43,368 nt of DNA, taken from the IMG/VR virus record IMGVR_UViG_3300037839_000874, positions 1 to 43,368 of that record, one strand, 5' to 3'. This stretch comes from a virus. Position 1 is the first letter of the stretch. Every line of letters starts with the position of its first letter. The notes below the pieces were generated by a model. That model was not told the origin of the DNA. It saw only the letters and a program-made list of their open reading frames with translations, and did not search any database. A program made the translations under genes and the position numbers. This document shows positions 18,324-43,368 of this stretch, one piece after another.

Positions 18324-18355
18324 TGTAATTTAAACTAGGCAAAGGAATAAGGAAT

Positions 18356-27377: not shown

Positions 27378-28159
27378 ACTTTTTTCAATCTTTCGATCAA
27401 TTCAAATACTTTGCTTTTAGGAACATCTTTTATAGATGCAAAACTTTCTGCACCATCAAACTTCTCTTTAATTAACTTATTTTTAAGCACTTCGAAAGAT
27501 ACTCCTTTTTCTTGCATCACTTTCTCTAATAAAGCAGCAGGATTCATAGGGTTCTCTTTTTCAGAATCTTCTTTAGCTACGAGTCCTAATTTTGCATCTC
27601 CTAACTCTTCTTGAGATACAATATTAATCTTCAAGAAATTACGAACACATCTTACAAAGGCTCTATTTTCTGCTATAGCTGCTAAAAAATATCTAGCAAA
27701 GTCTTTCGTATTAACCAATGAAGCATCTGCTAATGCTTCAAATACGACTGGTCTATCTTCGGTTTCGTAATTAGGAATCCAAGTAATCCTACAAGATGTA
27801 GCAAAATAATTGTCTGCTGCAGTTATTACCTTATACTCAACACTTGTAAAGCCACGAATTTGAGCTAGCTCTTTTATTCCACCTAGAAGGATAAGTAAAT
27901 CTTTATCTTCTAATTTAGAAACATCTGTTTGTTGAGTTCTTTGCCTATTAGAGACGAGATACTGAGTTTTAACCATTCCTCTCCAATTAATAGATCCATC
28001 TTCATTGAATTGATAAGTTATATTATCATTTTCAAGTAATCCAAATTTATTACGAATAAATAGTTTTGGTGGCGTAACTTTAGGCAAAGTCTGAATTTTA
28101 TCTGTGAATATCTGCTCATTCTTCAATGAGCTACTATTAATTGAAATTGATTCTTCCAT
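27374..28159 (-). CDS. Possible Rad52-like single-strand annealing protein
   Basis: This 261-aa protein is not firmly recognised. Residues ~85-190 run GGIKELAQIRGF, then a strand with TSCRITWIPNYE, a VVFEALADAS turn and a helix AAIAENRAFVRCVRNFL. This order resembles Rad52-type and related phage annealing proteins, where a conserved A-x-T/N-R-A-x-x-R helix closes the core. The C-terminal ~60 residues are a separate charged helical domain. Annealing would fit the nearby RecA and nuclease genes. The gene has its own strong promoter, with the -10 only 6 nt before the ATG and no Shine-Dalgarno. It overlaps the tail of the convergent adhesin gene by 4 bp. The coding call is firm; the function is tentative. 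Confidence 0.5.
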   Translation of the reverse strand: MEESISINSSSLKNEQIFTDKIQTLPKVTPPKLFIRNKFGLLENDNITYQFNEDGSINWRGMVKTQYLVSNRQRTQQTDVSKLEDKDLLILLGGIKELAQIRGFTSVEYKVITAADNYFATSCRITWIPNYETEDRPVVFEALADASLVNTKDFARYFLAAIAENRAFVRCVRNFLKINIVSQEELGDAKLGLVAKEDSEKENPMNPAALLEKVMQEKGVSFEVLKNKLIKEKFDGAESFASIKDVPKSKVFELIERLKKV

Positions 28160-28165
28160 TTAAGT

Positions 28166-28194
28166 ATATTACCGCTGTTTTAAGTTTATGTCAA
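28166..28194 (-). promoter_or_regulatory. Leaderless sigma70 promoter for the gene at 27374-28159
   Basis: On the minus strand TTGACA (28189-28194) is followed by a 17-bp spacer, TAATAT (28166-28171), 6 nt and the ATG at 28159. The -35 is a perfect consensus. Transcription should start at or within a base or two of the ATG, leaving no room for a Shine-Dalgarno. Confidence 0.75.
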
Positions 28195-29355
28195 CTCAAA
28201 TAGATAGAAATATTTAGATTCTTCCCAAAAAATAGGATCATCTATGGCTTTAATAGCTTTATTTTCGAAAGGTATGTCGTTAATATAGGCAGCTTTTGAG
28301 TTATAAATTTTGCCTTTGCTTATTGTTATTTTATTAGATTTATAAAGTAAGCTATCAATATTTCTGTCTTTTAATATTTCTAGATCTTTCTTCTCAGTTT
28401 TCACAGATCTTATAATTTGAGCATAATCCATATAATCTAGCTTAATACTCTTAACAAAATCTTCTGATAAAAACGTGGACAAGGCGAATGTTTTTCCTAA
28501 TTTTTTCAAGTCTTTTACAAATTCTATGCTATGATTTTGATCTAAATCATAAATGATCTGCGCGATGTTATCTTTATATTTATTTAAAATATCATATCTT
28601 ATGGGTTTTGAAGTAACTATTGAGCAATTATTTCTCTTGAGTTGCTCTTCTAAAACTCCTTCATTAAACTCGTAATCCATTCTCATAATCAATGAATTAA
28701 CTCCTAACTTAGAGATATCTGCAATTACGCTATTTGGAACGGATTCTATTAATCTTCTGCTATAATCTTCTCCAATATAATTTGTTTTTATATTGATTTT
28801 TTCCATGCCAAGAAACTCTAATATATAATTGGCTATTTGTATTGGATCTATTTCATTAATTGTTTTGGGAGATTCTTTAGCCGAATAACTTGGCTTTCTA
28901 TCTTTTTTACTTGCCTCCAGTGTTTTAACTTTATTTTTTGAACTAAAGTATGGTCCAGCATTTTCTGGTCTACTGTTTGAATATAAAGCTACTATAGGCT
29001 TATCATAATGACTCGCTACATGTACTCCAAAGCTATCTGCACCAAAATGTAGCATGCCTCTTTTTATAATATAAGCTGCTTGATTAATAGTAGTCTTACC
29101 TTGCAAATGATAACAGTTTTCTAAAGGTTTTTCATCTTTTCCACCAATTTGTACTATATGAATTTTTTTCTCTTGTAGTATAGGTACAAGTTGATTTATC
29201 ACTTCTTGCCAAAGATCATAGCTTTTAGAATCATATTTGCTGCATGGCTGAAATGATATATAATCATCAAATGGAATTGGGCAATATTTTTCATATATAG
29301 ATGGTTTATCTATTTTAAGTCCACAATTTAAAGCGTAAGTTTCAATTAAGTGCAT
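28186..29355 (-). CDS. Glycosyltransferase family 9-like, C-terminal half plus extra domain
   Basis: Residues ~30-150 of this 389-aa protein match the C-terminal nucleotide-sugar-binding half of family 9 (heptosyltransferase-like) enzymes: ISFQPCSKYDSKSYDLW, IGGKDE, LQGKTTINQAAYII and GADSFGVHVASHYDKPIVALY. The N-terminal half of the fold is missing here. It lies at the end of the upstream gene, which this one overlaps by 14 bp in a different frame. Residues ~185-389 are unrecognised; they may be a separate sugar or radical-SAM-unrelated TIM-like domain, with no clear motif. Together the two genes probably make a two-subunit or frameshift-joined transferase acting on virion or host glycans. 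The start is the ATG inside the upstream stop region. A sequencing error could also explain the split. Confidence 0.72.
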   Translation of the reverse strand: MHLIETYALNCGLKIDKPSIYEKYCPIPFDDYISFQPCSKYDSKSYDLWQEVINQLVPILQEKKIHIVQIGGKDEKPLENCYHLQGKTTINQAAYIIKRGMLHFGADSFGVHVASHYDKPIVALYSNSRPENAGPYFSSKNKVKTLEASKKDRKPSYSAKESPKTINEIDPIQIANYILEFLGMEKINIKTNYIGEDYSRRLIESVPNSVIADISKLGVNSLIMRMDYEFNEGVLEEQLKRNNCSIVTSKPIRYDILNKYKDNIAQIIYDLDQNHSIEFVKDLKKLGKTFALSTFLSEDFVKSIKLDYMDYAQIIRSVKTEKKDLEILKDRNIDSLLYKSNKITISKGKIYNSKAAYINDIPFENKAIKAIDDPIFWEESKYFYLFELT

Positions 29356-31261
29356 ATTTGTAATCCTTGTAAGCTATATTAGTTTTGCCATTATGAAGAT
29401 AAGTTAAAAATCTTTGTGTTTGAGAATATGGCAAGAAAGCTATCTCAAAGTATCCTTTGTGAGTTGAGATGCCTTCTAACCAAGTCAAGCTATCCATTTG
29501 AGAAATGTATTGTATAACTTTATGAATATGAGGATTTGCTTCCAAGATGTCAAAGTATTCTGGCTTCGTTGCCACATATAGATTATATGATGGATACTGT
29601 TCTTTAATAGACTTAAAAAGGCTTGTAGATAAGAATACATCTCCTATACTTTCTGGCATAACATATAATAATCTTTTACCATCATCATCTTTATCTAGCA
29701 AATCATCAAAAGCAATTTTTGGATTTTTGCTATTGTCTTGAAGAGCAACTTGACGAAAATAGTTTTCTATATCAACTCTTTTAGTTCCTTTTTCTATTTC
29801 TTTCATCCAGTATTTATAGCCTTCATCTTCTTTGTCCATATTGTTTGCTTTTAAGATATTCTTATATAAATGTAAAACCCATTCAGAATCGTCTTTAATA
29901 TCTGGCATAGCACAATATGCATCTTTTTCTTCTACTTCGAAAGAGTAGTTTTTATCTATTAAAGGAGAAGAGTCTATAAAGTCTTCTATAATTTTACCAA
30001 TCGTTTCTACTGAATAGTTTTTTACTGTCCATTCTCTTGCTTTTTTGCCGTAGTCTGATCTTTCTTCTTTAGACATGCTATAGACTTTTGATAGATTAAT
30101 TGCTATAGATTTTGGACATGTAGAAGCTTTAATGAACTCTGTTCCATGCTCTCTGTATTCATTCCATTCTAATGGAAGACTATATGCCTCTTGTTGGCAC
30201 ATCTCTTCTCCACAAGAGTAATTTGTAACTAAAGTTATCAGTTCGGTAAGCTTGGCTTCTTGTATTGGAATTTCTTGACCTCCGCTAGTAAATGGATGAC
30301 AATAAACATCCATTAAATTGTAGACCTCATTTAGACTTTCTTCAGTTACTCCTAAGCCTACATTAGTAGTAATTTGAGATTTTTTATTTCCACAGAATTC
30401 ACAATCTAAGTCTTGACCATTAAAATTTTTAACTTCATAATTACCGCATGCTTTGCATATATATGTAGTAAATATTTCCTTGGGGTCAATATTATATTCT
30501 TTTGCTAGCTTCATGATATTCCAACCTTCACCAAAATGAGTATGAAGCAATAGTCCAGAATTTTTTATATTATTTTCTTTTTTCCAGATAGCGTATCCTT
30601 CTAAAAGATTGGGAACGCTTTTTCTCAACTGATTTCTAAATACGAATCCAACAATAAATTTATCTTTATCTATCTTAAATTTAGATCTTAACTCTAATCT
30701 TTTATCATCAGAAATTCTATAAAAATTATCTGTATCTAATGCTCCATGAACAGTCTTGACATGGTTATGCCCTAACTTATGTAAGGCTTTTGTTGCAAAA
30801 TCGCTCCATATCCAATAATTTTTGACTTTGGGTGCGCATTTGACAGCTGATTCAAGGATAGGTAAAGAGTCTAAAGTCGTCCATATTACTGAGCTTATCT
30901 TATTAAACCAAGGCTTATCTATGGCGAAATCTACTCCCCAAATGTCTTGGACAGCGATATAAACATCTGGTTTTTCCTCTTTTATTATCTCGTCTAATAA
31001 ATGAGCTCCATAACTAGCCATTCTAGCTAAATGAGGATCTTTATTTAATTGCTCTACTTCTTGTTGCGAATTTGGAAGTGAACCGCAGCTTTTCCAAGGA
31101 GTCCTTTCTAATTGAGGATTTCCTTTCTGCATTCCGCAGCAATAATTTACTATATCATATTTACCAGTTTTATATAAATATTTGATAATAGCTTTAGAAT
31201 TTCTTCCAAAGCCAGTCTTCGCTAAAGAAAAATCAGATTGAAAGACTATCTTCTTACGCAT
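29342..31261 (-). CDS. Fused glycosyltransferase: GT4-like with zinc ribbon, DUF4214, and GT9 N-terminal half
   Basis: The protein has 639 residues. Residues ~1-440 are a GT-B, family 4-type transferase: an N-terminal FSLAKTGFGRNSKAI glycine motif, a VHGALDTDNF linker, and a C-terminal Glu pair in SGGQEIPIQEA (Glu330, Glu335). A Cys4 zinc ribbon (Cys269, Cys272, Cys287, Cys290) is inserted in the C-terminal Rossmann domain. Residues ~459-505 resemble DUF4214 (LYKNILKANN, GYKYWMKEIEKG). Residues 531-639 are the N-terminal half of a family 9 transferase (LLYVMPESIGDVFLSTSLFKSI); the fold then continues in the next gene in another frame. It lies 5 nt after the possible SSB gene and should be read from the same promoter. 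Substrate and acceptor are unknown. Confidence 0.78.
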   Translation of the reverse strand: MRKKIVFQSDFSLAKTGFGRNSKAIIKYLYKTGKYDIVNYCCGMQKGNPQLERTPWKSCGSLPNSQQEVEQLNKDPHLARMASYGAHLLDEIIKEEKPDVYIAVQDIWGVDFAIDKPWFNKISSVIWTTLDSLPILESAVKCAPKVKNYWIWSDFATKALHKLGHNHVKTVHGALDTDNFYRISDDKRLELRSKFKIDKDKFIVGFVFRNQLRKSVPNLLEGYAIWKKENNIKNSGLLLHTHFGEGWNIMKLAKEYNIDPKEIFTTYICKACGNYEVKNFNGQDLDCEFCGNKKSQITTNVGLGVTEESLNEVYNLMDVYCHPFTSGGQEIPIQEAKLTELITLVTNYSCGEEMCQQEAYSLPLEWNEYREHGTEFIKASTCPKSIAINLSKVYSMSKEERSDYGKKAREWTVKNYSVETIGKIIEDFIDSSPLIDKNYSFEVEEKDAYCAMPDIKDDSEWVLHLYKNILKANNMDKEDEGYKYWMKEIEKGTKRVDIENYFRQVALQDNSKNPKIAFDDLLDKDDDGKRLLYVMPESIGDVFLSTSLFKSIKEQYPSYNLYVATKPEYFDILEANPHIHKVIQYISQMDSLTWLEGISTHKGYFEIAFLPYSQTQRFLTYLHNGKTNIAYKDYKYALN

Positions 31262-31266
31262 TTAGA

Positions 31267-31851
31267 TTACCAAAGGTCTTCGTTGTCTTCTGATGGAGTA
31301 GGTGCTTCTGTTGAATCCTGCGCTTTATCTTTCTGTTTTCTTTCGTCTATGGATTTAGCTTTGTTATTTTTTAAATTTTTAATCTCTTCGCTACGTTCTG
31401 TAGAGAAGATATGCCCTAAACCAAATTTGATATATTCTGCTACCATACGACCTTCAGCGAATGTAAAGCCAATTAAGAAGCTTGTTGCAGGCTGAGTAGT
31501 CTGTACTTTAGAAGTCTTAATAACATTAAGGCTATATCCAATTTGCTTATCTTCTCTTAAGTATGGAGAGAACTTTATTCCTAATTTTTGATTCTCTGAA
31601 TTATGGAATAAATCTATAGATCGGTTGTTATCTATCACATCTAATATTCCACATACTTCAATTTTAGATAGTTTAACTACTACTTTTTTCTCTGGATTTT
31701 GTGCGTTATCAGAAAAACTACCGATCTTCTTTTGGTCATTCCAGCTAGCCTGTTTAATTAAATTTAAATAAAAATTGCCATCAATATTATTAAAAGAAAA
31801 GCTACAAGCTGTGCCAGTTACTCTTGGTGTTGGTTTATAAATTTGTATCAT
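31267..31851 (-). CDS. Possible single-stranded DNA-binding protein
   Basis: This 194-aa protein starts MIQIYKPTPRVTGTACSFSF. The core has a run of predicted beta strands (FYLNLIKQASWN, KKVVVKLSKIEVCGIL, SFLIGFTFAEGRMVAEYIKFGL) that resembles Whirly/PC4-like phage proteins I have seen beside replication genes. The last ~40 residues are Lys-rich then acidic, ending EDNEDLW. An acidic tail with a terminal aromatic residue is the usual partner-docking tip of SSB proteins. It lies directly after the polymerase gene and has its own strong, apparently leaderless promoter, as expected for an abundant SSB. There is no classical OB-fold motif, so the assignment rests on tail, length and position. Confidence 0.5.
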   Translation of the reverse strand: MIQIYKPTPRVTGTACSFSFNNIDGNFYLNLIKQASWNDQKKIGSFSDNAQNPEKKVVVKLSKIEVCGILDVIDNNRSIDLFHNSENQKLGIKFSPYLREDKQIGYSLNVIKTSKVQTTQPATSFLIGFTFAEGRMVAEYIKFGLGHIFSTERSEEIKNLKNNKAKSIDERKQKDKAQDSTEAPTPSEDNEDLW

Positions 31852-31858
31852 ATATTAT

Positions 31859-31887
31859 ATATTATCAAACTCTTAACTAAAAATCAA
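31859..31887 (-). promoter_or_regulatory. Leaderless sigma70 promoter for the possible SSB gene
   Basis: On the minus strand TTGATT (31882-31887), a 17-bp spacer and TAATAT (31859-31864) lie 7 nt before the ATG at 31851. A perfect TATAAT at 31854-31859 overlaps but would be spaced 22 bp from the -35. No Shine-Dalgarno is present. The site occupies the whole gap after the polymerase gene. Confidence 0.68.
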
Positions 31888-31888
31888 G

Positions 31889-34426
31889 TTATTTTTCTTT
31901 AATTTCTCCAAGTTTCATAAAGATTTTATGATCTTGAATTGATATCAAATCTGCGAATACAGTATCTTCACCTTTTTTCTTGCCTTTAACTATCACAATA
32001 TTACCTTCGTCTGGTAATATATTATTCATTTCTTTACATTCATCTATCTTGTCATTGAATATTAATGCAGTTAATTTAGAGCTCTCGTCTTGTACAGACA
32101 ATCTTAAATATCTGGTCTTCTTTGCGTTGTTGGCTATACCTAAATATTGTTCTTTAATTATGCCTATGAATATAACTGATAATCCTTCTGGTGCTTCATT
32201 GACTTCTCTTATGTTTAATAGATCTGGTTTCTGATCAGAAAAGATATCTTTTAAACTAGTATTATATGTATACCCTAAAAGTTTATTTTCATAATACCAA
32301 TTAGCAAATCTTTCATTTTTGCTATTTTGTTGATATATCTTCTTGTATGGATCGTAAGATTTTGTTATTGTTTCTAGCCTTGTCTCTTTGATTATAAGTT
32401 TACCTTTTTCATCTTTTGTATTGCTTAATAATTTAATAATTTTAAATAGATCATAATCAAACTTTTCTCCATACATCATGCAGTATTTTTGCTCATTTTG
32501 AGTTAATATATTCCATAGTTGAGCTTCTAATACTACCTTGCTCCTAGACTGTTTAAAATCCTCTAATGCTCCAGCTTGTATTAATGGAGATAGCACCCTT
32601 ATCGACAACTTCGCTTGTTGCCCAGACTTAAATACGTCAAACTTCGAAGCATATTTATTTCTAAAATCATTAAGTCTTTGAATAGACTTATCGCTAATTC
32701 CTTTAATAGATAATAAGCCGAACCTAATATCATCTCCTTCAACACTAAAGTCCATTTCTGATTTAATAATATGAGGTGGCAATAGTTTTATGTTAAATAA
32801 ATCCATTTCTTTATGAATCTTAGATATTTCATCTATAGGATCTGGCTCAAATCTAGTCATCCTTAATAAGGATAAGAAGAATTCTTTTGGATGCTTAAAT
32901 TTTAAATAAATTGTAATCGCTGCTAATGCTGCATAGCTTTGACTATGACTAGCATTGAATGAATAATTGGCAGAATCTTCTAGAATTTTCCATAGAGTTT
33001 CTCCAATCTCTTTCTCTAAATTATTTGATACACATTTCTTTTCGATCTTCTCTTTCCAAGCTTTGATTTCTTCGACTTTCTTTTTACCAACAATTCTCCT
33101 CAATATCTCGGCTTGATCTAAAGTAAAACCAATTTTATGTGCCATTTGCATTAATTGTTCTTGATAAAGAGCTAACCCTCCTGTTCTCTTCAATGTCTCA
33201 TCGAAAAATGGATGAACAGATTGATACTCTCCAGTCTCTACGTATTTAGCATATTGGTCAACGAATTGTAATGCACCTGGCCGAGCCAATGCTAATACCG
33301 CACTCAACTCTTCTAAATTTCTTGGTCTAACCTTTCTGCAAACTTTAAAATTCGTGTCTGCTTCGATTTGAAATAGGCCATGAGGACTTCGGAGGTCTTG
33401 TAATTGCTGGTAAATAAATACATCTTCTGTATTGATATCTTCTATCTTAGACTTAATCATAAGACATACATCATAGACTACCGAAACACTTCTTAATCCA
33501 AGCAAATCTAGCTTAACATTGAACTGACTTATATCATTCATATCGAAAGAACTTACCAGTTCCTTATCGGAAGATAATTCTAATGGACATGCTTCTGATA
33601 ATTTTTCGTGAGATATTTGAATGCCAGAAGGATGAACACCTTTATTTTTTATCAAATTTCTTAATTTTAAAGCTATATTATAAATCTCTTGATTTTGATC
33701 ACACCATTCTTTAAACTTTTCTACTTCGTTATAGGCTTCGGAAATATCTTTAACTTGACCGAACGTTTTTGGAATTAAACTACTAATATGAGTCATCTCG
33801 GTCTCATTTTTTTCCTCTACGATTTTACCACATTCTTTGATAAGAAGTTTTCCGCTTAAAGTATTGAATGTTAAAATTTTACTAATTCTATTTGGAAAGA
33901 CTTCATTTAAGAAATCTATGACCTTATGGCGATTGTAATAACAAATATCCAAATCCACATCGCACATTAAACTTCCATCAAGATATGTGATCCCATCAAC
34001 AACTTGTTTCTTTGCTCTAATCTTAGAGATAAATCTTTCGAAGTAAAGATTATGTTTAATTGGATCTATTTTAGTAACGCCTATCAAGAAAAGAATTAAA
34101 CTACCCGCTGCACTTCCTCTTCCTAGTCCAGTAGGAATTTCGCTTTCTTTACAGAAGTTAATAACTAACCATACTAGAATTATATAATCAATAAATCCTA
34201 GATCTTCTATAATCTCGAATTCATGATCTAATCGTTTTTTATACTCTGGTTTTTTAGGAAGATTATTGTAAGCTAGTTTTTTTAGAAAATCAGCATTAGA
34301 AACGTCTTCGGATAATCCTAGATTTCTTTTATGCTCTGCCTTGACTTTAAACTCTGGCAACCTTACTCCATAAAGTGGCAAGTTTATTTTTTTGAATGAA
34401 TTAACAAAATCAATCGTCTTCGTCAT
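31889..34426 (-). CDS. DNA polymerase III alpha-like catalytic subunit lacking the PHP domain
   Basis: This is the replicative C-family DNA polymerase of the phage (845 aa). The palm shows GRGSAAGS (residues 102-109) and CDVDLDI, with Asp158 and Asp160 as the likely catalytic pair; KLDLLGLRSVSVVYD supplies the third acidic residue. Fingers motifs follow: LYQEQLMQMAHKIGF, ILRRIVGKKK and FNASHSQSYAALA. A helix-hairpin-helix (SIKGISDKSIQRL) and a C-terminal OB-fold (~740-830) complete the core. The N-terminal PHP domain (~270 aa) of bacterial DnaE is absent. The protein starts exactly where that domain would end, and a PHP-like protein is encoded two genes upstream. Bacterial DnaE is ~1160 aa. 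It overlaps the preceding small gene by 17 bp. Confidence 0.95.
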   Translation of the reverse strand: MTKTIDFVNSFKKINLPLYGVRLPEFKVKAEHKRNLGLSEDVSNADFLKKLAYNNLPKKPEYKKRLDHEFEIIEDLGFIDYIILVWLVINFCKESEIPTGLGRGSAAGSLILFLIGVTKIDPIKHNLYFERFISKIRAKKQVVDGITYLDGSLMCDVDLDICYYNRHKVIDFLNEVFPNRISKILTFNTLSGKLLIKECGKIVEEKNETEMTHISSLIPKTFGQVKDISEAYNEVEKFKEWCDQNQEIYNIALKLRNLIKNKGVHPSGIQISHEKLSEACPLELSSDKELVSSFDMNDISQFNVKLDLLGLRSVSVVYDVCLMIKSKIEDINTEDVFIYQQLQDLRSPHGLFQIEADTNFKVCRKVRPRNLEELSAVLALARPGALQFVDQYAKYVETGEYQSVHPFFDETLKRTGGLALYQEQLMQMAHKIGFTLDQAEILRRIVGKKKVEEIKAWKEKIEKKCVSNNLEKEIGETLWKILEDSANYSFNASHSQSYAALAAITIYLKFKHPKEFFLSLLRMTRFEPDPIDEISKIHKEMDLFNIKLLPPHIIKSEMDFSVEGDDIRFGLLSIKGISDKSIQRLNDFRNKYASKFDVFKSGQQAKLSIRVLSPLIQAGALEDFKQSRSKVVLEAQLWNILTQNEQKYCMMYGEKFDYDLFKIIKLLSNTKDEKGKLIIKETRLETITKSYDPYKKIYQQNSKNERFANWYYENKLLGYTYNTSLKDIFSDQKPDLLNIREVNEAPEGLSVIFIGIIKEQYLGIANNAKKTRYLRLSVQDESSKLTALIFNDKIDECKEMNNILPDEGNIVIVKGKKKGEDTVFADLISIQDHKIFMKLGEIKEK

Positions 34427-34667
34427 CTTTACTTTTCTTTTTCCGCTTTTTATTTGATTTAAAATTGTTGATTGACTTATCTATATTTATTTGGAATTCA
34501 CTTAAGCCTTCTTTAAGAGCTCCAAAAGACTTCTCTTCATTATTCAAAGAATAAAATACGTCTGCTTTACTATTAGTCTTACCATGCTGGATGGTAATAA
34601 ATAAATAATCTATATTTTCTTTCTCTAGTTTACCTAGAATATCGTAGATGTTGTCCATTGATGCCAT
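34410..34667 (-). CDS. Small unrecognised protein with basic-acidic tail, before the polymerase gene
   Basis: This 85-aa protein is not recognised. The first ~65 residues could form a small alpha/beta domain. The end is strongly basic then acidic (KSNKKRKKKSKDDEDD), a disordered tail that could bind DNA or a partner protein. It is the first gene of a unit with the catalytic polymerase, which it overlaps by 17 bp, so it may be a polymerase accessory factor. A near-perfect leaderless promoter lies directly before the ATG, and there is no Shine-Dalgarno. The promoter, overlap and reading phase support it as a real gene. Confidence 0.72.
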   Translation of the reverse strand: MASMDNIYDILGKLEKENIDYLFITIQHGKTNSKADVFYSLNNEEKSFGALKEGLSEFQINIDKSINNFKSNKKRKKKSKDDEDD

Positions 34668-34674
34668 ATTGAGT

Positions 34675-34703
34675 ATTATATATTTCTATTAGGAAAAATG
34701 CAA
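34675..34703 (-). promoter_or_regulatory. Leaderless sigma70 promoter for the 85-aa protein and polymerase
   Basis: On the minus strand TTGCAT (34698-34703), a 17-bp spacer and a perfect TATAAT (34675-34680) lie 7 nt before the ATG at 34667. It occupies the 36-bp gap after the exonuclease gene. The predicted RNA start falls on the ATG. Confidence 0.72.
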
Positions 34704-35345
34704 TCAAATATTAACCATATGCTTGATTTTATTCCAGACTTTAAAATTTAGCTCTAAATCTGACAAAGCATTATGCAAAGAATCATAATCATGATTAATA
34801 TCTAGATCTTTTCCAGCTGCGGTCAAGTTCGTTCTGACATTCTTAACTCTAGTATGATATAATTTATACATATATTCTGGCAAAGATTCTTTTTTAGGAT
34901 CGAAAGCATTTGAAGTCTTTATTCCTTTGTAAATTAAATTTGTGTCTATAGCTTTAGAAAGAAAATCGTAAGGTTTCATATCCATGAATTTATAGTATTC
35001 ACTAAGTAAATATAAATCAAATCCTAATATATTATGGCCAATTATATAATCTGCGTTCTCTAACCAATCTCTAAGAGTAGGGAAAAATGCCTTTGGGTCA
35101 ATGCCATGCTTTTGTATATTTCTCGGATCGTATTTAGTTATTTTTGCGGCATCTTTACTTATCTTCAAATCTGTTTGCCATTTCAAATACGCATCTTTCC
35201 CATCGATAATATTATCGCCTTGACATTTAAGCATAGCTACTTGCCAAGGAATATTATGACAAAAATTAAGACAAAGATTTAACGTCTCGCAATCTACAAA
35301 AACTAAAGTTTTAGTTTTATCGAATCTTAATAAATGCTCATCCAT
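34704..35345 (-). CDS. DnaQ-type DEDDh 3'-5' exonuclease
   Basis: This 213-aa exonuclease is probably the proofreading subunit for the adjacent C-family polymerase. The motifs are in order: ExoI VFVDCETL (Asp18, Glu20), ExoII IIGHNILGFDLYLLS (Asp110), and ExoIII SLHNALSDLEL (His191, Asp196), which is the DEDDh type. The length is that of a stand-alone epsilon subunit core. It overlaps the PHP-like gene by 8 bp and lies between the two halves of the divided polymerase. This suggests that PHP-like protein, exonuclease and polymerase core act as one replicase complex. No ribonuclease-specific extension is visible. Confidence 0.9.
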   Translation of the reverse strand: MDEHLLRFDKTKTLVFVDCETLNLCLNFCHNIPWQVAMLKCQGDNIIDGKDAYLKWQTDLKISKDAAKITKYDPRNIQKHGIDPKAFFPTLRDWLENADYIIGHNILGFDLYLLSEYYKFMDMKPYDFLSKAIDTNLIYKGIKTSNAFDPKKESLPEYMYKLYHTRVKNVRTNLTAAGKDLDINHDYDSLHNALSDLELNFKVWNKIKHMVNI

Positions 35346-36099
35346 GATTTTGTTCTTTCCAGCTCTCTAAGCAGAATTCGTTACTAGACATATGTTCTAT
35401 TTCGGGCTTATTTAGTGTCGTTCTATTATTAATGCATCTAAAAGTTAAAAAACTTTTAAAGTCTTTTTTGTTCTTGTAATAGATACTTTTAGTATTAAAT
35501 GATTCAAGATCGTTTGATTTCGCATACTCAAGCATTTTACGCTTAACTAGAGGATCGAATATCAAAGAGTTGTCCTCAATAAAAATTGATGGTTTAAAAT
35601 TCTCTAAAAATGGGACACATTGATATCCTTTTAAACAGTTATTAAAAATGAAGTTATCATAGAATGGTAGAGCTATCTTTAAGCTATCGTTGAAGTGCTC
35701 TTTGAGAATATTCATATCTAATCTTGGAGTATAGTAAAATCCTTCAGTATTGGCCTTTGTCCACAACTTTATGAGTAGCTTATAGCCTTCGTCTCCATTT
35801 GCAAATAATATTACTTTATGATGTTTTTTAAGTTCTGGTTCACTTTTATTCAAATGGTCTTCACAAAATACAAATTTTATGCCAAATATTAAATCAATAT
35901 CAATTAATTTTAAGTTCTTGTAAGCCTGTAAAAAACCGCTAAAGCAATCTTCTACTAAAAACACTTTCTTAAGTTTATTGTCTTTGGCTATTTGAATAAT
36001 AGAATCTGGCCCATTATCTGTTTCGCTCTCTGGCTTAAGAGTTAATATACTCTTTCCTATGGAAAAATGACTTTTAAAAAGCGGAATAACATTGCTCAT
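35338..36099 (-). CDS. Stand-alone degenerate PHP domain of DNA polymerase III alpha
   Basis: The protein has 253 residues and corresponds to the N-terminal PHP domain of DnaE, made as a separate protein. Matching landmarks are FGIKFVFCED, HHKVILFANGDEGYKLLIKLW, GFYYTPRLDMNILKEHF and the terminal LNKPEIEHMSSNEFCLES, which parallels the PHP end of DnaE just before the palm. Metal-site residues of active PHP domains are missing: the early HxH is replaced (SHFSIGKS region) and the TDHG motif reads VEDC. It is therefore probably structural, perhaps holding the exonuclease to the polymerase, as PHP does in bacteria. It starts its own unit from a leaderless promoter and overlaps the exonuclease gene by 8 bp. 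Confidence 0.82.
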   Translation of the reverse strand: MSNVIPLFKSHFSIGKSILTLKPESETDNGPDSIIQIAKDNKLKKVFLVEDCFSGFLQAYKNLKLIDIDLIFGIKFVFCEDHLNKSEPELKKHHKVILFANGDEGYKLLIKLWTKANTEGFYYTPRLDMNILKEHFNDSLKIALPFYDNFIFNNCLKGYQCVPFLENFKPSIFIEDNSLIFDPLVKRKMLEYAKSNDLESFNTKSIYYKNKKDFKSFLTFRCINNRTTLNKPEIEHMSSNEFCLESWKEQNHG

Positions 36100-36105
36100 T
36101 GTCTA

Positions 36106-36134
36106 TTTATATCTGATATTATGATCTAGGTCAA
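36106..36134 (-). promoter_or_regulatory. Leaderless sigma70 promoter for the PHP-like and exonuclease genes
   Basis: On the minus strand TTGACC (36129-36134), a 17-bp spacer and TATAAA (36106-36111) lie 6 nt before the ATG at 36099. The -35 covers the stop codon of the upstream nuclease gene. No Shine-Dalgarno fits in the leader. Confidence 0.72.
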
Positions 36135-37090
36135 GTCAAATCGTCAAAGGCATCTTTTGATTTTTGATTAATCGAATTATTATTATGTCTTGGGCATCCA
36201 GTATATTGCCTTTGCTCTACTGTAAATCCTTCAACATCTTTAAATTCCCCAGTAAAATTTGATTCTACTATTTCTCCAGCATCATTAAGTTTAACATGAT
36301 AACTAAATGGGTCTTTATATGGACATCTCCAATTGCCTATACTACACATCCACTTATTCTTAGGATTATCTACGGCAAAATTTGATTGAGCGCTATCTTT
36401 ATCAAAATTATTAATGTATTCATTAACATACTCTAAATAGTATTCGAACCCTTTAATTTCATCCTCATCAAATTGTAGCTCTTGAATTGGTTGCTTAGGG
36501 AATCTTAAGAATAGAAACTTAATAATGGGCTTTAATTTAGGCCATAATTTTTTACTCGCTAGACTATACATCATGGCTTGTATGTTCGCTTCAAGGTCAT
36601 CACCCCTAAACTTGTACTTCGAGCTCTTGTAGTCGATTATATGCATTTCTTTTTTGATTTTAATAGGCTTATCTATGAAACCTCGGATATGATATTTAGG
36701 CTTATCGTTTTTAATTTCAAATGCATACTCTGGTTCTATTATCTTTCCGTTTTCACCAAAGAAGTCGTTCTTTAATCCGACTAATATCATTTCATCTAAT
36801 AGCTTATAATTGCTTTCATTGAGATTGACTTTAGCTGATAATTTTTTAACGAGTTTAGATACACCCTTATCTCCATCTATAGAGTTACTCTTGATGATAC
36901 TCTTATAGTTTTTATAATGCCTTTTATTTAAAAGAAGTTCAAAGATTGTATGGCATATTGTTCCCCTATCGCTTCCATCATTAGACTTTTGTGGTGTCTT
37001 AATATGATAATTGTTCCAGTAAACCCAAGAACAAGTTTCAAGAGTTTTAATTCTAGACGCAGATAATATTTTTAAAGATTGTTTTTCCAT
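36131..37090 (-). CDS. PD-(D/E)XK nuclease of the RecB/Cas4/AddB type with iron-sulfur cysteines
   Basis: In this 319-aa protein the nuclease core shows RGTICHTIFE (His47), RGFIDKP (Asp140), HIIDYKSSK (Asp153, Lys155) and QAMMYSLA (Gln171, Tyr175), the full RecB-family motif set. Four cysteines, Cys20 before the core and Cys249, Cys256 and Cys299 after it, match the arrangement that holds a 4Fe-4S cluster in AddB and Cas4. The role is probably DNA end processing for phage recombination with RecA, or host DNA breakdown. No CRISPR array or cas gene is nearby, so a Cas4 adaptation role is unlikely. It overlaps the primase gene by 19 bp and ends the DnaB-ThyX-primase unit. Confidence 0.87.
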   Translation of the reverse strand: MEKQSLKILSASRIKTLETCSWVYWNNYHIKTPQKSNDGSDRGTICHTIFELLLNKRHYKNYKSIIKSNSIDGDKGVSKLVKKLSAKVNLNESNYKLLDEMILVGLKNDFFGENGKIIEPEYAFEIKNDKPKYHIRGFIDKPIKIKKEMHIIDYKSSKYKFRGDDLEANIQAMMYSLASKKLWPKLKPIIKFLFLRFPKQPIQELQFDEDEIKGFEYYLEYVNEYINNFDKDSAQSNFAVDNPKNKWMCSIGNWRCPYKDPFSYHVKLNDAGEIVESNFTGEFKDVEGFTVEQRQYTGCPRHNNNSINQKSKDAFDDLT

Positions 37091-37980
37091 TGTAAGATCT
37101 CCTCTTTGTTCATTTCGCCAAAGTCTTTTTTAATTGGTAAGGCGATTTGTATTTGGTTTCTATCAAAATGTTTTAATAATTTCTCTTTAGCTTTTTCTGA
37201 TGCTAAATTACCTGCTTTATTCTTAAACTCATCATTATTAAATGATATATAGATTTTGTTTGGATTTAAGACTAATAAAGTATTTAAAATGCTAACACTT
37301 AGAGCTAGGCCAAAAGTGACAATCACATTTTTAACTCCAGCTTCCCATAGACTTAACATATCTCCTATACTCTCAACGATAATAACTTCTTTGCTCTCGG
37401 AAAGGATCTTTGCGTTAACTTGCAAAGGGTAACGCCAATTGATCTTATCTCCTATCAATTTCCATTTTGGACAAAACTTTTCGTTTCTATTTAGAATATC
37501 TCTGCCAGCAACTCCAATTAACTTGTCTTGTTTATCTAGAATTGGGAAAATATATCTGCCCTTCATTCTGCCTTCGGTTAATATTCCTCCATTAAAAATG
37601 TTCATAGTCTCTTCTGAAATATTTCTTTTCTTCCAGAAGGAGTGATCTTTTATTAATTTATCAAGAACATCATTTGAATAGCACTTTACTTGTTTAATCT
37701 GAGGTTTTCTGTAGACTGTATATGATGCTTCAGTTTGAACTTTCTTGCTTATCCATTCTTTAGCTTCTGTATTATTCGGAAGATTTAAAGTCATTCTTAC
37801 TAAATCTTGAAGATTTCCAGTTGTATTCTCTTTATAATCTATCCATTTGCCACTATCTTTATATATTACTAATACGTTCTCATTATCTGAATCTCTATAT
37901 AGAGGTTTTGTTCTGTATTCTTTTAAATACTCTTTCAAATCATACCCTAAATTAGATAAGATTTCTTTTATGTTTTCCAT
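37072..37980 (-). CDS. DnaG-like DNA primase (TOPRIM) with degenerate zinc-binding domain
   Basis: In this 302-aa primase, the N-terminal ~65 residues keep the shape of a CHC2 zinc-binding domain (NVLVIYKDSGKWIDYKENTTGNLQDLVRM) but lack its cysteines and histidine. The RNA polymerase core is short. The TOPRIM domain has IVESIGDML (Glu203, Asp207) and IYISFNNDEF, where the usual D-x-D reads N248-N-D250, so one metal ligand is replaced by Asn. The gene lies between thyX and the nuclease and overlaps both (13 bp and 19 bp). It would supply primers for the C-family polymerase with the DnaB helicase. The family call is firm; catalysis with the altered motif is untested. Confidence 0.85.
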   Translation of the reverse strand: MENIKEILSNLGYDLKEYLKEYRTKPLYRDSDNENVLVIYKDSGKWIDYKENTTGNLQDLVRMTLNLPNNTEAKEWISKKVQTEASYTVYRKPQIKQVKCYSNDVLDKLIKDHSFWKKRNISEETMNIFNGGILTEGRMKGRYIFPILDKQDKLIGVAGRDILNRNEKFCPKWKLIGDKINWRYPLQVNAKILSESKEVIIVESIGDMLSLWEAGVKNVIVTFGLALSVSILNTLLVLNPNKIYISFNNDEFKNKAGNLASEKAKEKLLKHFDRNQIQIALPIKKDFGEMNKEEILQWKNNL

Positions 37981-38624
37981 TCTAATGCCTCACTAATAAT
38001 TGGAAACTCTTTAATAAATATCTTTTTGCATCTTTCGGCAATTAGTCTATGTTCTTTTTGAGTATTTTGTTGCGTTCTTAATTCAAGATAATGTATCCAG
38101 CTTCTCAATGAGCCTTTCATATACATGGTCGTTTGAGTTGTTAAAGGTAATATCATTCTAGCAACCTCTTTAGCTACTCCATTTTCTATCATTGAATCAT
38201 AACAATGCTGAGAAAGCGATAAAGATTCTACAAGAAGTTCGCTAACTTTATCATATGCATCTGTATTAGTTGGCATAAGGTGCTCTCCTACTTGCCTGTT
38301 CTTATCTCCTTGCAAGCGAAGTTCGATATCTTCAAATTCATTTGCTATACTATACCTTTGACTGAACTCTTGAAAGCTAAATGATCTATGTCTAAGAATT
38401 TGCGCTGCAATTCCGCGGCTTGTTTTAATTTCAACGCACATATCAACTAATTCAAATGGACTCCAATGCTTGTGATTAATTAAGAATTTTAAAAGCTTAG
38501 GTGCAGTTTCTACATTCATTTGATTAGAAGGATTACTAACTCTAGCACAAAATGCAACCAGATCTTCTGCATTTTTCATGCCTTTGATTTCTGGTTTTGT
38601 TATTGATATTAGTTCTACGTTCAT
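37968..38624 (-). CDS. thyX: Flavin-dependent thymidylate synthase ThyX
   Basis: This 218-aa enzyme makes dTMP from dUMP using FAD, NADPH and methylenetetrahydrofolate. The ThyX signature RHRxxSx6SxR is read as RHRSFSFQEFSQR, with Arg78-His79-Arg80, Ser88 and Arg90. The length is normal for the family. The protein also has the expected start region (ARVSNP) and late MKGSLRSWIHYLELR, which includes the active-site Ser and Arg. Its start overlaps the dnaB stop by ATGA and its end overlaps the primase by 13 bp, so thymidylate supply is tied to replication. Phages in AT-rich genomes often carry it to raise the dTTP supply. Confidence 0.97.
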   Translation of the reverse strand: MNVELISITKPEIKGMKNAEDLVAFCARVSNPSNQMNVETAPKLLKFLINHKHWSPFELVDMCVEIKTSRGIAAQILRHRSFSFQEFSQRYSIANEFEDIELRLQGDKNRQVGEHLMPTNTDAYDKVSELLVESLSLSQHCYDSMIENGVAKEVARMILPLTTQTTMYMKGSLRSWIHYLELRTQQNTQKEHRLIAERCKKIFIKEFPIISEALEWKT

Positions 38625-40111
38625 ATCAGTTCTCCATCTTGGTTATCTCCACCTTGATCAAAATTAAGTCTTTCATTTTCTGCATCAACTATTTCTCTCA
38701 AAGTTCCTCTTTCTTCTACGTTAAAATTACCAACGTCAAAATTTATATAATTATTAAAATATTTAAATTCACTTTGACCGACTCTTCTACGAACTAAATC
38801 ATGATGTCCTGTACCTTCTCTGCCTTGAAATCTTGTCTTAATAGCTATCAATTTATGAGTTCCAAATTGTTCTCCATCGACTTGAATTTCATCTTGAGTT
38901 TTCCTTCTAAAAATTCCAACAAATGAAGCGAACCATTGCATTCTATCAGATAGGGAAATTGCAGAACTATCGTCCGTCACTTGACTTGAATTACGATTAA
39001 AATTTTCTCCAGTTCGATTTAATTGCATAGCGGTAATAACTGGACACTTTATTTCTTCGGATATTCTTTTCAGTTTATCAATTTTATCACCAATAGCTTG
39101 ATGCTCTGCCCAATTTTGACCTACTTTTTCTCCAGTCAATTTTATATAATCATAAGCTATTAAAGCTTGGTTACCTCTTCCAACTTTTGTATAATACCAT
39201 CTTCTAATAATAGAGGATATTTCATCTATACTCTTATTTGAAACATGATAATGATAATGAGTCATATTTTTGACCTTTGGCCAAGCCTCTCTCACCTTTT
39301 GTATCATTTCTGGATTTTTTCTCCAATTGCCTGTTTCTATATACCAAAGTGGAACACTAGAAATACTTGCGACTAATCTCATTTGAGTATCTAAAGTACT
39401 CATTTCTGTATCAAGAATAAGAGCTTTGGTATTTTTGTTATGTACATTAGCAGTTTTATAACATATATCATTAAGCCATGTGCTTTTACCTTGTCCTGGC
39501 CTACTTACTATAGAATATATATTCCCTTGTTTTAAGCCTCCATACATATTATTAAAATTGTTATATGGAGTCTTTAATCCAGTCTCTTGTCTGGGATTAT
39601 TACCAATCTCTTCAATTATACTCTCCATCTCTTCGAAAAGGTTAACTGGTTCGCCCTCTAGGTAATATTGAGTTACCTTATTATTATAAATCTCATCTAC
39701 TTTAGATACTATTTTATCTATTCCATCTTCTGCATTGTCTTTAACATACTTCTTGACATTTTCAGCTGTTTCAAACAACTCTCTTCTTACTTTTAGTTTA
39801 CTTAATTCCTGACAAGCACTTATAGTCCCTTGAGGATTGATTTGAGTCATGGCTAAGGAATCTATATAAGAAAATATATCAATCTCATCTTTAAAAGATA
39901 TGCCAAGATTTTTAATCTTTTGAGCTAATAATACTTTATCTATTTTATTATTCTTATTCAATTCATCTTTGATGCAAGAGAATATTGTATTGTGGACATC
40001 ATTATAAAAGTCTTTTTCAGATATAAATCTGGCTACATCAAAAAACACTTCTGAATTTCTAATTAGACCACCTAGAACATGACGTTCTACTTGAACCGAG
40101 TATATGGGCAT
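38621..40111 (-). CDS. dnaB: Replicative DNA helicase DnaB
   Basis: This 496-aa helicase has the two-domain DnaB layout. The N-terminal helical domain (residues ~1-100, beginning VERHVLGGLIRN) is followed by a linker and a RecA-like motor with Walker A RPGQGKST (204-211). LILDTEMS follows, then ALIAYDYIKL (Walker B) and the VITAMQLNRTGE motif with its Gln/Arg finger residues. It unwinds the fork and recruits primase, which is encoded two genes downstream. It heads the dnaB-thyX-primase-nuclease unit, whose genes all overlap, and it is preceded by a strong leaderless promoter. The extreme C-terminus is acidic and Gln/Asn-rich. No loader gene is recognised in the window. Confidence 0.96.
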   Translation of the reverse strand: MPIYSVQVERHVLGGLIRNSEVFFDVARFISEKDFYNDVHNTIFSCIKDELNKNNKIDKVLLAQKIKNLGISFKDEIDIFSYIDSLAMTQINPQGTISACQELSKLKVRRELFETAENVKKYVKDNAEDGIDKIVSKVDEIYNNKVTQYYLEGEPVNLFEEMESIIEEIGNNPRQETGLKTPYNNFNNMYGGLKQGNIYSIVSRPGQGKSTWLNDICYKTANVHNKNTKALILDTEMSTLDTQMRLVASISSVPLWYIETGNWRKNPEMIQKVREAWPKVKNMTHYHYHVSNKSIDEISSIIRRWYYTKVGRGNQALIAYDYIKLTGEKVGQNWAEHQAIGDKIDKLKRISEEIKCPVITAMQLNRTGENFNRNSSQVTDDSSAISLSDRMQWFASFVGIFRRKTQDEIQVDGEQFGTHKLIAIKTRFQGREGTGHHDLVRRRVGQSEFKYFNNYINFDVGNFNVEERGTLREIVDAENERLNFDQGGDNQDGELI

Positions 40112-40118
40112 GTAGTTA

Positions 40119-40147
40119 AGTATAGTGCCAATTTAGCACTAAGTCAA
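40119..40147 (-). promoter_or_regulatory. Leaderless sigma70 promoter for the dnaB operon
   Basis: On the minus strand TTGACT (40142-40147), a 17-bp spacer and TATACT (40119-40124) lie 7 nt before the ATG at 40111. The -35 starts directly beside the stop of the small upstream gene. No Shine-Dalgarno is present. Confidence 0.72.
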
Positions 40148-40396: not shown

Positions 40397-40409
40397 ACAT
40401 GAATTTACA

Positions 40410-40829
40410 CTAAAAAATACTTATATTGAAATTGTCAAGGAAAAACTTAGCAGACAATAGCTTTAAATCTTTTTCATAAATCTCTAAAAGTTTAAAATTA
40501 TTTTTCTCTAGCCATTCCTCTTTCTTGCAGTCTCTTTTTATACTTTTTAAGTAATTCATTCTAGAGTGATTATGAAAAAATTCATTAAAGTTGTCATGCT
40601 GTGCGCCGTTTACTTCTATTGCTATTCGTTTTGTAGCGTTCAATATATCCACCTTCATAAGTGAGCCATAGACTGGGAATTCTTCATATACAATATGATG
40701 TTTCCAATATTGTTGAAAGAATTTTTTAGTGTTAAACTGAATTTTACTTCTGCTGGGCTTATCCCAATCTATTAAATATTTTGAGACGTTTTTATTGACT
40801 AGCTTTCCATTCAAGCTCAATAATCTCAT
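40410..40829 (-). CDS. Small PD-(D/E)XK endonuclease, Vsr/resolvase-like
   Basis: This 139-aa protein has Glu50 in VYEEFPV, Asp61 in MKVDIL and Glu72-Val-Asn in IAIEVNGAQH, an acidic triad in the spacing of Vsr-type and DUF559-like nucleases. A helix follows (YLKSIKRDCKKEEWLEKNNF) and then the strand KLLEI, also as in that group. Similar small phage nucleases are sometimes proposed as Holliday-junction resolvases, which would fit the overlap with recA (4 bp). It could also be a free-standing homing-type nuclease, although no DNA-binding repeat or HNH or GIY-YIG motif is present. Confidence 0.72.
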   Translation of the reverse strand: MRLLSLNGKLVNKNVSKYLIDWDKPSRSKIQFNTKKFFQQYWKHHIVYEEFPVYGSLMKVDILNATKRIAIEVNGAQHDNFNEFFHNHSRMNYLKSIKRDCKKEEWLEKNNFKLLEIYEKDLKLLSAKFFLDNFNISIF

Positions 40830-41971
40830 GCAGTTATCAATTTTTTATATTTCTCAAAAAGGAAATCTGTAATTTTAACATTCTCTTCAAGATATTTTCT
40901 AAAGTTATCCATACCTTGATGTTGCTTCTGTAATTCAAGACCGTTCTCCTTTAGTTCTTCTACTATTTGGTCACTGCAAGTGATCCATGCCCCTTTAGCA
41001 ATAATAAATTGCCAAGCTAAAAGTTGATCAATTATTTCGTATTCTCTCCAGATAGATGTTCCATTCTTACGACCATGTTTGATTGGATACTCTACTTTGT
41101 TATTAGTTGTTTCATTCGTAGACTTTTTAATCGACACTTTAGAAGTGTGACCAATGATCTTATTTTTTACAGCATCATATCTTTCATTTGGCTTTTCCAG
41201 AATAAGATCTTTATTATATCTTGGTTCAAATTCTATGATCCAATTTGCATAATGTAATAAAGCATTTCCACCAGTAGCAGTTGTTTGTCTAATGTCTTTA
41301 TTTGCTGAATATGGATCGAGCTTAATATCAGATCGTACTTGGCTAATAAAAATAGCCATATGTCCTCTTTTAGATAAAGCTATAGACATCTTCTTCATTA
41401 GCACAGAGGATATAACTGCTCCACCAGCTACTTTTGTAGCATCTGATAAAGTTTTACCAGCATCATTTTTAGGCATCAAGCCGTCCACAGAATCTAGAAT
41501 AAAAAGATACTTATTGTTTTCTGGATTATTTCTTACGAGATCTAACATAAGCTCTGATACAGTCTCAAAGATATTAGATTCAAATACGAAACAATTTCCA
41601 TTTTTCCAAAGGTCTGGATCGCCAACAAACTCTACTCCAGATCTTTCTTGTATCTCTTTGCTAAGTCTTCCTTCAGCTTTAATTAAAAGTCCTCTAGAAT
41701 TTTTTACAGTCTTTAAGAAGTTCTTCATTACTTCTAATGCTTCTGAAGTTTTGCCTCCTTCGTTCATTCCTATAAATCGATGCAATCCAGGGCAAAATCC
41801 TCCGCCCATAACAAAATCTAAATTCAAACTTCCAGAAGAGACTTTGTAGTGAACTTCTTCTTCGAAGTTATAGTGGTCATCTTTATTAGATTTTAAGAAT
41901 GCTTTTAGCCGATCATTAATGCCCTCATCTTGATTATGAGCTTCTTCTATATTTGCTTTAGGTCTTGCCAT
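40826..41971 (-). CDS. RecA/UvsX-type recombinase
   Basis: In this 381-aa recombinase, Walker A reads GMNEGGKT (residues 68-75), a variant of the bacterial GPESSGKT. Walker B is YLFILDSVDGL. MAIFISQVRSDI precedes an L2-like ATGGNALLHYANW. Residues after ~260 form the usual C-terminal domain with a charged end. It catalyses strand pairing in phage recombination and replication restart. A Shine-Dalgarno (AAAGGA) lies about 10 nt before the ATG, unlike the leaderless starts further along this strand. It overlaps the upstream unknown gene by 14 bp and the nuclease gene by 4 bp. It is more diverged than bacterial RecA and closer in feel to phage recombinases; I give no symbol. Confidence 0.9.
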   Translation of the reverse strand: MARPKANIEEAHNQDEGINDRLKAFLKSNKDDHYNFEEEVHYKVSSGSLNLDFVMGGGFCPGLHRFIGMNEGGKTSEALEVMKNFLKTVKNSRGLLIKAEGRLSKEIQERSGVEFVGDPDLWKNGNCFVFESNIFETVSELMLDLVRNNPENNKYLFILDSVDGLMPKNDAGKTLSDATKVAGGAVISSVLMKKMSIALSKRGHMAIFISQVRSDIKLDPYSANKDIRQTTATGGNALLHYANWIIEFEPRYNKDLILEKPNERYDAVKNKIIGHTSKVSIKKSTNETTNNKVEYPIKHGRKNGTSIWREYEIIDQLLAWQFIIAKGAWITCSDQIVEELKENGLELQKQHQGMDNFRKYLEENVKITDFLFEKYKKLITA

Positions 41972-42302
41972 TTAAAAATTCCTTTAATGTTTTAACTTTC
42001 TTGTTTATCGTTTTATCATTTCCTATTTTAGTACTCTCTAAATGATATGATATTTTTATATCTTTGTCAACATTTAATGAAGATTTTTCTTTTAATAGAT
42101 ATTTTTTGCCTTCAAAAGATAACAACCACTCTAAAGATTTAATAGGTTTCTTTTTAAGATTAAACCAAAAATTACAATTTGGCTCAAATTGTATTAATTT
42201 TTTTGCTTGATTTATCTCGTATCCCCATGGTATATTTTTTGAAACTACAAATTTTAGTATTATATAACGACATAATTTTGCTCCAGATATTTGATTGCTC
42301 AT
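41958..42302 (-). CDS. Unrecognised 114-aa protein overlapping the GT17 gene
   Basis: I do not recognise this protein. It is Lys/Ile/Asn-rich with a central aromatic stretch (CNFWFNLKKKPIKSLEWLLSF) and a charged end, and has no membrane segment or signal peptide. It overlaps the upstream glycosyltransferase by 119 bp and recA by 14 bp. The first overlap is unusually long. Its frame stays open for several codons before the ATG, so a real frameshift, a sequencing error, or a later non-ATG start are all possible. No clear Shine-Dalgarno or good promoter lies before the ATG. The non-overlapping part reads like normal coding sequence for this genome. Confidence 0.62.
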   Translation of the reverse strand: MSNQISGAKLCRYIILKFVVSKNIPWGYEINQAKKLIQFEPNCNFWFNLKKKPIKSLEWLLSFEGKKYLLKEKSSLNVDKDIKISYHLESTKIGNDKTINKKVKTLKEFLNGKT

Positions 42303-43134: not shown

Positions 43135-43141
43135 CTATAAT

Positions 43142-43368
43142 TTACACTTCGTAAGACTCTAAATCGTTTCTTACCATCTTTTCTACGAGTGTCGAGAAGC
43201 TAGTATGCGGTTTCCAATCTAATTCTTTCCTAGCCTTTGTCGAATCGCCTAATAGTGTTTCAACTTCTGCTGGTCTATAGAACTTTGGATTAATCTCTAC
43301 GAGAACAACCAGTTTATCTCTAATGTAAGCGCAATACTTTTCATCTTCTGGTCTTTGGGTTTTATTTT
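43142..43368 (-). CDS. gmd: GDP-mannose 4,6-dehydratase, C-terminal end (5' part outside window)
   Basis: Only the last 75 codons are inside the window. They read VEINPKFYRPAEVETLLGD, then STKARKELDWKPHTSFSTLV and an end in EKMVRNDLESYEV. This is the C-terminal signature of GDP-mannose 4,6-dehydratase, which makes GDP-4-keto-6-deoxymannose, the precursor of GDP-fucose and related 6-deoxy sugars. The frame is open to the window edge. It ends 7 nt before the GTG of the family 17 glycosyltransferase, so the two are probably cotranscribed, with gmd supplying a sugar nucleotide. The assignment from this fragment is strong because the motif is highly conserved. Confidence 0.88.
   Translation of the reverse strand, partial: NKTQRPEDEKYCAYIRDKLVVLVEINPKFYRPAEVETLLGDSTKARKELDWKPHTSFSTLVEKMVRNDLESYEV

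Follow-up and report, generated by a model that had tools for sequence, protein, structure and literature searches.

We analyzed the IMG/VR virus record IMGVR_UViG_3300037839_000874 over its full 43,368 nucleotides (nt) (the window), a 43-kb fragment of a tailed phage with a guanine-cytosine (GC) content of 31%, together with related loci and contigs. Five minus-strand genes of the window are each preceded by a sigma-70-type promoter (class 1) that ends 6 or 7 nt from the ATG; this geometry is conserved in relatives, which also carry a second, one-element promoter class (class 2, GTGTAA(T/A)) and homologs of sigma factors. We consider it very likely that these features reflect a design of the whole family of large, uncultivated phages from the environment, in which class 1 promoters lie at start codons, the first genes of operons are leaderless, and class 2 promoters, read by a phage sigma factor, are built in the same way.

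The five sites had been noted in a sequence-only reading, and every element was found where that reading had placed it: a TTG-type -35 element, exactly 17 bp, a -10 element, 6 or 7 nt and an ATG, all on the minus strand. The promoter at 28166-28194 (-35 TTGACA at 28189-28194, -10 TAATAT at 28166-28171, 6 nt) precedes a predicted leaderless gene of 261 amino acids (aa) (27374-28159) that gave no Pfam or PHROGs match. That at 31859-31887 (TTGATT at 31882-31887, TAATAT at 31859-31864, 7 nt) precedes a 194-aa gene without assigned function (31267-31851), also predicted to be leaderless and followed by glycosyltransferase-like genes. The promoter at 34675-34703 (TTGCAT at 34698-34703, TATAAT at 34675-34680, 7 nt) serves a putatively leaderless 85-aa gene (34410-34667), which lies before the DNA polymerase III alpha gene (31889-34426) and overlaps it. 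At 36106-36134 (TTGACC at 36129-36134, TATAAA at 36106-36111, 6 nt) lies the promoter of a PHP-domain protein, the N-terminal part of a split replicative polymerase (35338-36099; Pfam PF02811, 9e-12; phrog_405), whose message would likewise be leaderless; the exonuclease subunit gene follows at 34704-35345. The fifth promoter (40119-40147; TTGACT at 40142-40147, TATACT at 40119-40124, 7 nt) precedes the predicted leaderless gene of a DnaB-like replicative helicase (38621-40111; phrog_19, 1e-55), which leads a helicase-ThyX-primase-exonuclease operon. The start codon of this helicase is well fixed, because its conserved residues begin directly after the ATG, within a few residues in all relatives.

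The observation of the five sites is thus confirmed. All five have the TTGACA-like -35, the spacing of about 17 bp and the TATAAT-like -10 that define sigma-70-type promoters, and the intergenic gaps in which they lie, as bounded by upstream stop codons, are 26-37 nt, hardly longer than the promoter needs. No Shine-Dalgarno (SD) sequence precedes any of the five genes, and one is present at 6466, 13517, 15822, 16933, 18356 and recA, as had been reported. The proposal of a coherent early or replication class was borne out in its coherence and in its position, as class 1 opens the replication operons (DnaB helicase/ThyX/primase/exonuclease; PHP domain/exonuclease subunit; DNA polymerase III alpha), but the genes at 28159 and 31851 have no known function and early timing would be expected only by inference. 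Taken together, the geometry supports the view that the five sites are sigma-70-type promoters of one coherent class, arranged to give leaderless transcripts.

A comparison with shuffled sequence had been suggested for the motif. In the whole window, TTGNNN-17-TANNN(T/A)-6/7-ATG occurred 10 times, against a mean of 4.68 and a maximum of 10 in 100 dinucleotide shuffles, and this plain count of a loose motif was dropped as proof because it is not decisive. The enrichment lay at gene starts. Half of the ten matches sit on them, so that 5 of 27 gene starts in the window have the motif where about 0.09 were expected (about 0.0034 per ATG); the resulting P = 3e-8 for at least 5 of 27 refers to a motif that was picked after the sites had been seen. 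Since the motif had been defined from the window sites, the independent sequence of relatives was examined. Across 1,056 distinct gene starts from 80 related loci and the window, with about 0.7 sites expected per distance, sigma-70-like sites numbered 6 at 5 nt between -10 and ATG, then 52, 42, 32, 48 and 21 at 6, 7, 8, 9 and 10 nt, and 4 at 11 nt. A transcription start on the first base of the ATG demands just such a sharp lower edge at 6 nt. This distribution fits the earlier prediction that the RNA starts at the A of the start codon, with the correction that distances of 6-10 nt over the family would give leaders of 0-4 nt, not always zero.

Class 1 sites were found at 107 of 993 gene starts and at 13 of 3,439 internal in-frame ATGs in seven relatives and the window (Fisher 1e-56, computed on related sequences that are not independent). 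The peak at 6-10 nt recurred in each long contig taken singly, and up to 33 class 1 sites were present in one 172-kb contig. As in the TA-led signal of Zheng et al. (2011), a -10-like TANNNT some 12 bp ahead of the start codon, with 6-7 nt between, occurred above the shuffled level, and T stood at position -1 in 64-66% versus 45%. A collinear relative of 43% GC (G013) had class 1 sites at 17 of 206 starts; its identical layout rules out an artefact of AT-richness. Among cultured AT-rich phages used as controls (T4, HTVC008M, P-SSM2, Twort and CP21), 2 of 278 starts had such a site. In 80 T4-like marine IMG/VR loci the count was 24 of 931, most promoter-like sites lying at leadered distances. 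At 6 nt these marine loci (L303-L382) also show a minor peak (13 starts), and some of their gene families may be leaderless too. The layout is therefore not unique to the phage family of the window, but it is unusually dominant there.

Conservation was followed from the helicase gene, for which a search yielded 80 IMG/VR loci at 60-92% identity; among phage records and genome contigs, a protein search found no close cultured relative. The arrangement seen in the window precedes the helicase start in every one of these loci. In 68 distinct sequences upstream of the helicase, the TTGACT -35, the 17-bp spacer and a distance of 6-10 nt were each present in 68 of 68. For each of the other four window sites, two to eight close relatives kept, with few exceptions, both promoter elements, the spacing between them and a distance to the ATG of 6-9 nt, and the spacer sequence diverged while the geometry stayed. 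The 31851 and 36099 sites are each retained in eight relatives, and the 34667 site in close relatives. The 28159 site reads TTGACA-17-TATGAT-6-ATG in the relative G001, and the same arrangement precedes a 59%-identical ortholog in the 43% GC relative. The dnaB spacer sequence, TTGACTTTTAATTTTTA, was considered as a general regulator site and rejected: with at most one copy per contig, in 6 of 12 contigs, it was taken as conservation of one promoter.

By gene family, a class 1 site was present in 56 of 56 members for dnaB, 38 of 44 for the 31267 family, 35 of 49 for the PHP-domain gene and 34 of 42 for recA, and in none of the ThyX, primase, polymerase and exonuclease families. The sites thus fall on operon leaders and not on downstream genes. 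Consistent with this, the median gap before class 1 genes was 38 nt, roughly what such a promoter occupies, versus 2 nt before other genes.

The recA gene offers a comparison within close relatives. In the window, this RecA/UvsX-like recombinase gene (40826-41971, minus strand) overlaps the upstream gene, has the SD sequence AAAGGAATTTTTAA and lacks a promoter of its own, as it does in the close relatives L003, L005/G003 and L008. In G001, it is preceded by TTGACA-17-TATAAT-6-ATG and has no SD sequence. As judged from these upstream regions, recA switches between a predicted leaderless promoter and an SD sequence among close relatives. The 85-aa gene trades likewise over the family, with a class 1 promoter in 7 of 47 members and an SD sequence in 29 of 47.

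Class 2 emerged as the most enriched upstream word in the family genomes: GTGTAAT lies at most 50 nt upstream of 80 gene starts, versus 2.5 expected, among 110 copies in all. The element GTGTAA(T/A) is a single -10-like element without a conserved -35 or upstream block, and it precedes many genes of the structural region (tail-region and terminase-proximal), nrdB-like genes and others. Its distance from the start codon is bimodal. At 5-14 nt, 2 of 84 genes had an SD sequence; at 16-37 nt, 31 of 45 did, compared with 222 of 756 other genes. The low SD frequency at short distance is partly forced, because the element sits in the SD position, whereas the excess at long distance is not. When no ATG was assumed, the codons exactly 7 nt after the element were ATG in 29 cases and GTG in 14, with TTG absent and CTG, ACG and GCG at no more than one each; GTG starts show a family-wide peak at exactly this distance. 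We explain an ATG and GTG peak without TTG by a purine as the first transcribed base, which would be the first base of the codon. The leaderless layout is not peculiar to class 1, since class 2 is built alike about two thirds of the time.

Both arrangements of class 2 occur in the window. A GTGTAAT at 16959-16965 on the minus strand lies 25 nt, with the SD sequence AAAGGAGCAAGG, before the ATG at 16933; one at 16974-16980 on the plus strand lies 20 nt, with an SD sequence, before the ATG at 17001; and one at 18323-18329 on the plus strand lies 26 nt, with an SD sequence, before the ATG at 18356, a further copy being present at 18301-18307. Because these three genes are leadered, they partly explain the contrast between SD-bearing structural genes and SD-less replication genes. 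Two GTGTAAA elements on the minus strand would give leaderless GTG starts: 40404-40410, 7 nt before the GTG at 40396 (82-aa open reading frame (ORF)), and 43141-43147, 6 nt before the GTG at 43134 (glycosyltransferase-like ORF). The back-to-back elements at 16959-16980 (AATTACACTTAAAGGGGTGTAATT) form a divergent pair between two tail operons, and a similar pair is present in G001, G003 and G007.

Sigma-like proteins are encoded in the family. A Sigma70_r2 match was found in 7 of 10 records at E values up to 1, and over the cut-off in 5 of 10. The first protein, of about 200 aa, matched PHROGs sigma families, and all 26 of its PDB profile matches were sigma factors, covering regions 2 and 4; a structural model of moderate confidence (pLDDT 76, pTM 0.51) gave, among the fold matches listed, only sigma factors or sigma-containing complexes. 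The second, of about 227 aa, is encoded next to the terminase gene and has the weaker evidence of a Pfam region 2 match only. Nearly all of 42 distinct loci have a class 1 site (TATAAT 5-9 nt from the ATG) at the start of the operon of the 227-aa gene, and in G003 the operon of the 200-aa gene is opened by one as well. Sigma-like proteins are encoded at G003 4213-4818 and at G006 141968-142651 (L100:3368-4051). The G006 protein has CxxC-type motifs, and its gene lies just upstream of the terminase region, with relatives in L209-L288; in all, 339 IMG/VR stretches encode a relative, and the gene is a possible marker for the family.

These observations suggest a cascade in the style of T4 or phiEco32 in which both promoter classes are built leaderless. 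The host's main sigma factor would read class 1 (TTGACA-17-TATAAT), starting transcription at the start codon or a base or so before it, and the first gene of each operon would be translated as a leaderless mRNA. Class 1 would open the replication operons and the operons that carry the phage sigma-like factors. A phage sigma factor would then read the one-element GTGTAA(T/A) of structural and other genes. This element stands either some 7 nt from the start codon or at 16-37 nt, the longer distance usually going with an SD sequence; genes further down the operons would use an SD sequence or coupling to the preceding gene. The features of a late promoter were found for class 2, namely a single -10-like element without a -35 upstream of structural genes, and a phage-encoded sigma-like factor in relatives. 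In a stronger form, which we regard as somewhat better than an even bet, both classes would as a rule start transcription on the first base of the initiating ATG or GTG, about one fifth to one quarter of the genes in large members, most operon leaders included, would be leaderless, and an SD sequence would be the gene-by-gene alternative set by promoter distance.

Other explanations of the motif itself seem far less probable. If the motifs were chance TTG/TA-rich hexamers in AT-rich DNA, with the real promoters further upstream, the whole-window count would be accounted for, as it stayed inside the shuffle range; but the limitation of the enrichment to gene starts and to 6-10 nt, the retention of orthologous sites despite diverged spacers and their recurrence at 43% GC leave this idea almost no credibility. 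It is also very unlikely, though slightly less so, that the promoters are real and the true start codons lie further downstream behind ordinary leaders. Start codons were assigned by position alone, which leaves room for such leaders and for SD-like sequences further inside the genes, yet the conserved N-terminus of DnaB begins at its ATG throughout the relatives, and both the 6-nt edge and the preference for GTG over TTG at 7 nt would then have no cause.

Two further proposals concern the cause of a leaderless design. The sequence-only reading had pointed to ribosomes altered or depleted by the phage or by stress. Leaderless translation can indeed respond differently to changes in ribosomes and factors (PMC9031893, where the leaderless cI mRNA of phage lambda is also mentioned). 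This proposal found no support, however, as a gene for ribosomal protein S21, the sole factor checked, was absent from 11 records, and the SD sequences of leadered class 2 genes and many others mean that SD-led initiation must work during infection; we judge it improbable. A plainer cause would be compaction, or a host in which leaderless mRNA is already translated efficiently. The latter, in which leaderlessness is a habit of a host lineage such as Deinococcus or Actinobacteria and the phage follows it, is compatible with the family-wide design and has, in our estimate, a little less than an even chance. In some bacterial phyla, leaderless genes whose -10 motif lies 6-7 bp from the ORF are widespread (PMC3160421, PMC12340547), and class 1 resembles ordinary host sigma-70 promoters; against a purely host-derived cause, class 2, which is likewise mostly leaderless, is probably specific to the phage. 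Neither the protein search (phage records and genome contigs) nor the tRNA and transfer-messenger RNA (tmRNA) genes gave a usable answer on the host. G001, G006 and G007 have tmRNA genes of their own (L083:8701-9117, L096:10938-11325 and L106:15525-15912), that of G006 being confirmed by Rfam RF00023.

Several points weigh against the family-wide leaderless design. Class 1 was scored by a sigma-70-type consensus, and the host may use another consensus and would have to be capable of leaderless translation. Gene starts in the relatives were taken as the first ATG, and the Fisher value shares its lack of independence with the other family counts. Distances of 8-10 nt would imply a leader of 1-4 nt. 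The missing SD sequence was rejected as independent proof of leaderlessness, because at short distance the -10 element occupies the SD position; the telling comparison is the surplus of SD sequences at long-distance class 2 sites. The assignment of GTGTAAT to a particular sigma factor is a guess based on gene content, and neither the 43-kb window nor G001, which like the other contigs may be fragments, gave a sigma match.

In the window, replication and nucleotide genes occupy the right-hand part (27.4-43.1 kb, minus strand) and tail genes the left part. The right-hand module encodes the RecA/UvsX-like recombinase, DnaB-like helicase, ThyX, primase, exonuclease, PHP-domain protein, polymerase exonuclease subunit, DNA polymerase III alpha and glycosyltransferases. 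The replicative polymerase III alpha is split over four genes (31889-36099) for the PHP-domain protein, the exonuclease subunit, the 85-aa protein and the polymerase body. Three glycosyltransferase-like genes lie in or beside the module (28186-31261; 42184-43134), and the first two are kept in relatives.

Individual parts of this layout have precedents. In T4, gp55 is a phage sigma factor that directs late promoters with a single -10-like element. The cI mRNA of lambda is a leaderless phage mRNA from a host-type promoter; it concerns a single gene, whereas the layout proposed here would be genome-wide. The phiEco32 sigma factor gp36 reads the one-element promoter tAATGTAtA and starts 6-8 bp downstream (PMC8948821); a similar spacing would put the class 2 transcript start on or next to the start codon, although the phiEco32 element differs from GTGTAAT and no general placement at start codons is described for that phage. 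In bacteria, including Deinococcus-Thermus, leaderless genes that have their -10 motif 6-7 nt before the ORF are established (PMC12340547, PMC3160421). Such TA-led genes resemble those of the window's family in the position of the -10 element and in lacking an SD sequence, but they belong to cellular genomes and are defined by the -10 motif alone, whereas the full TTGACA-17-TATAAT is conserved here. For Cluster O mycobacteriophages (Corndog), the sections of the published account that we consulted give about three predicted leaderless SigA promoters per genome, PL1, PR2 and PL2 (PMC4351075). Those phages have a mycobacterial host, and the same sections report no second promoter class, in contrast to the many class 1 sites and the second class of the present family. 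A literature search for a phage-wide leaderless layout gave, within the collection covered, only such Corndog-type cases. Leaderless genes themselves are known; a phage family whose two promoter classes both sit at start codons as a rule was not found described.

Leaderless phage mRNAs have so far been treated as exceptions, exemplified by lambda cI and the few predicted Corndog promoters. The present analysis supplies a new candidate pair of phage sigma factor and promoter. It also yields practical rules for calling gene starts and transcripts, as start prediction based on SD sequences would score such genes poorly. If the design is true, a large uncultivated family, to which two marker genes assign hundreds of IMG/VR stretches, would hold natural pairs in which one promoter, or even one gene (recA), exists in a leaderless and an SD-led version, and these would allow both routes of initiation to be compared within one infection.

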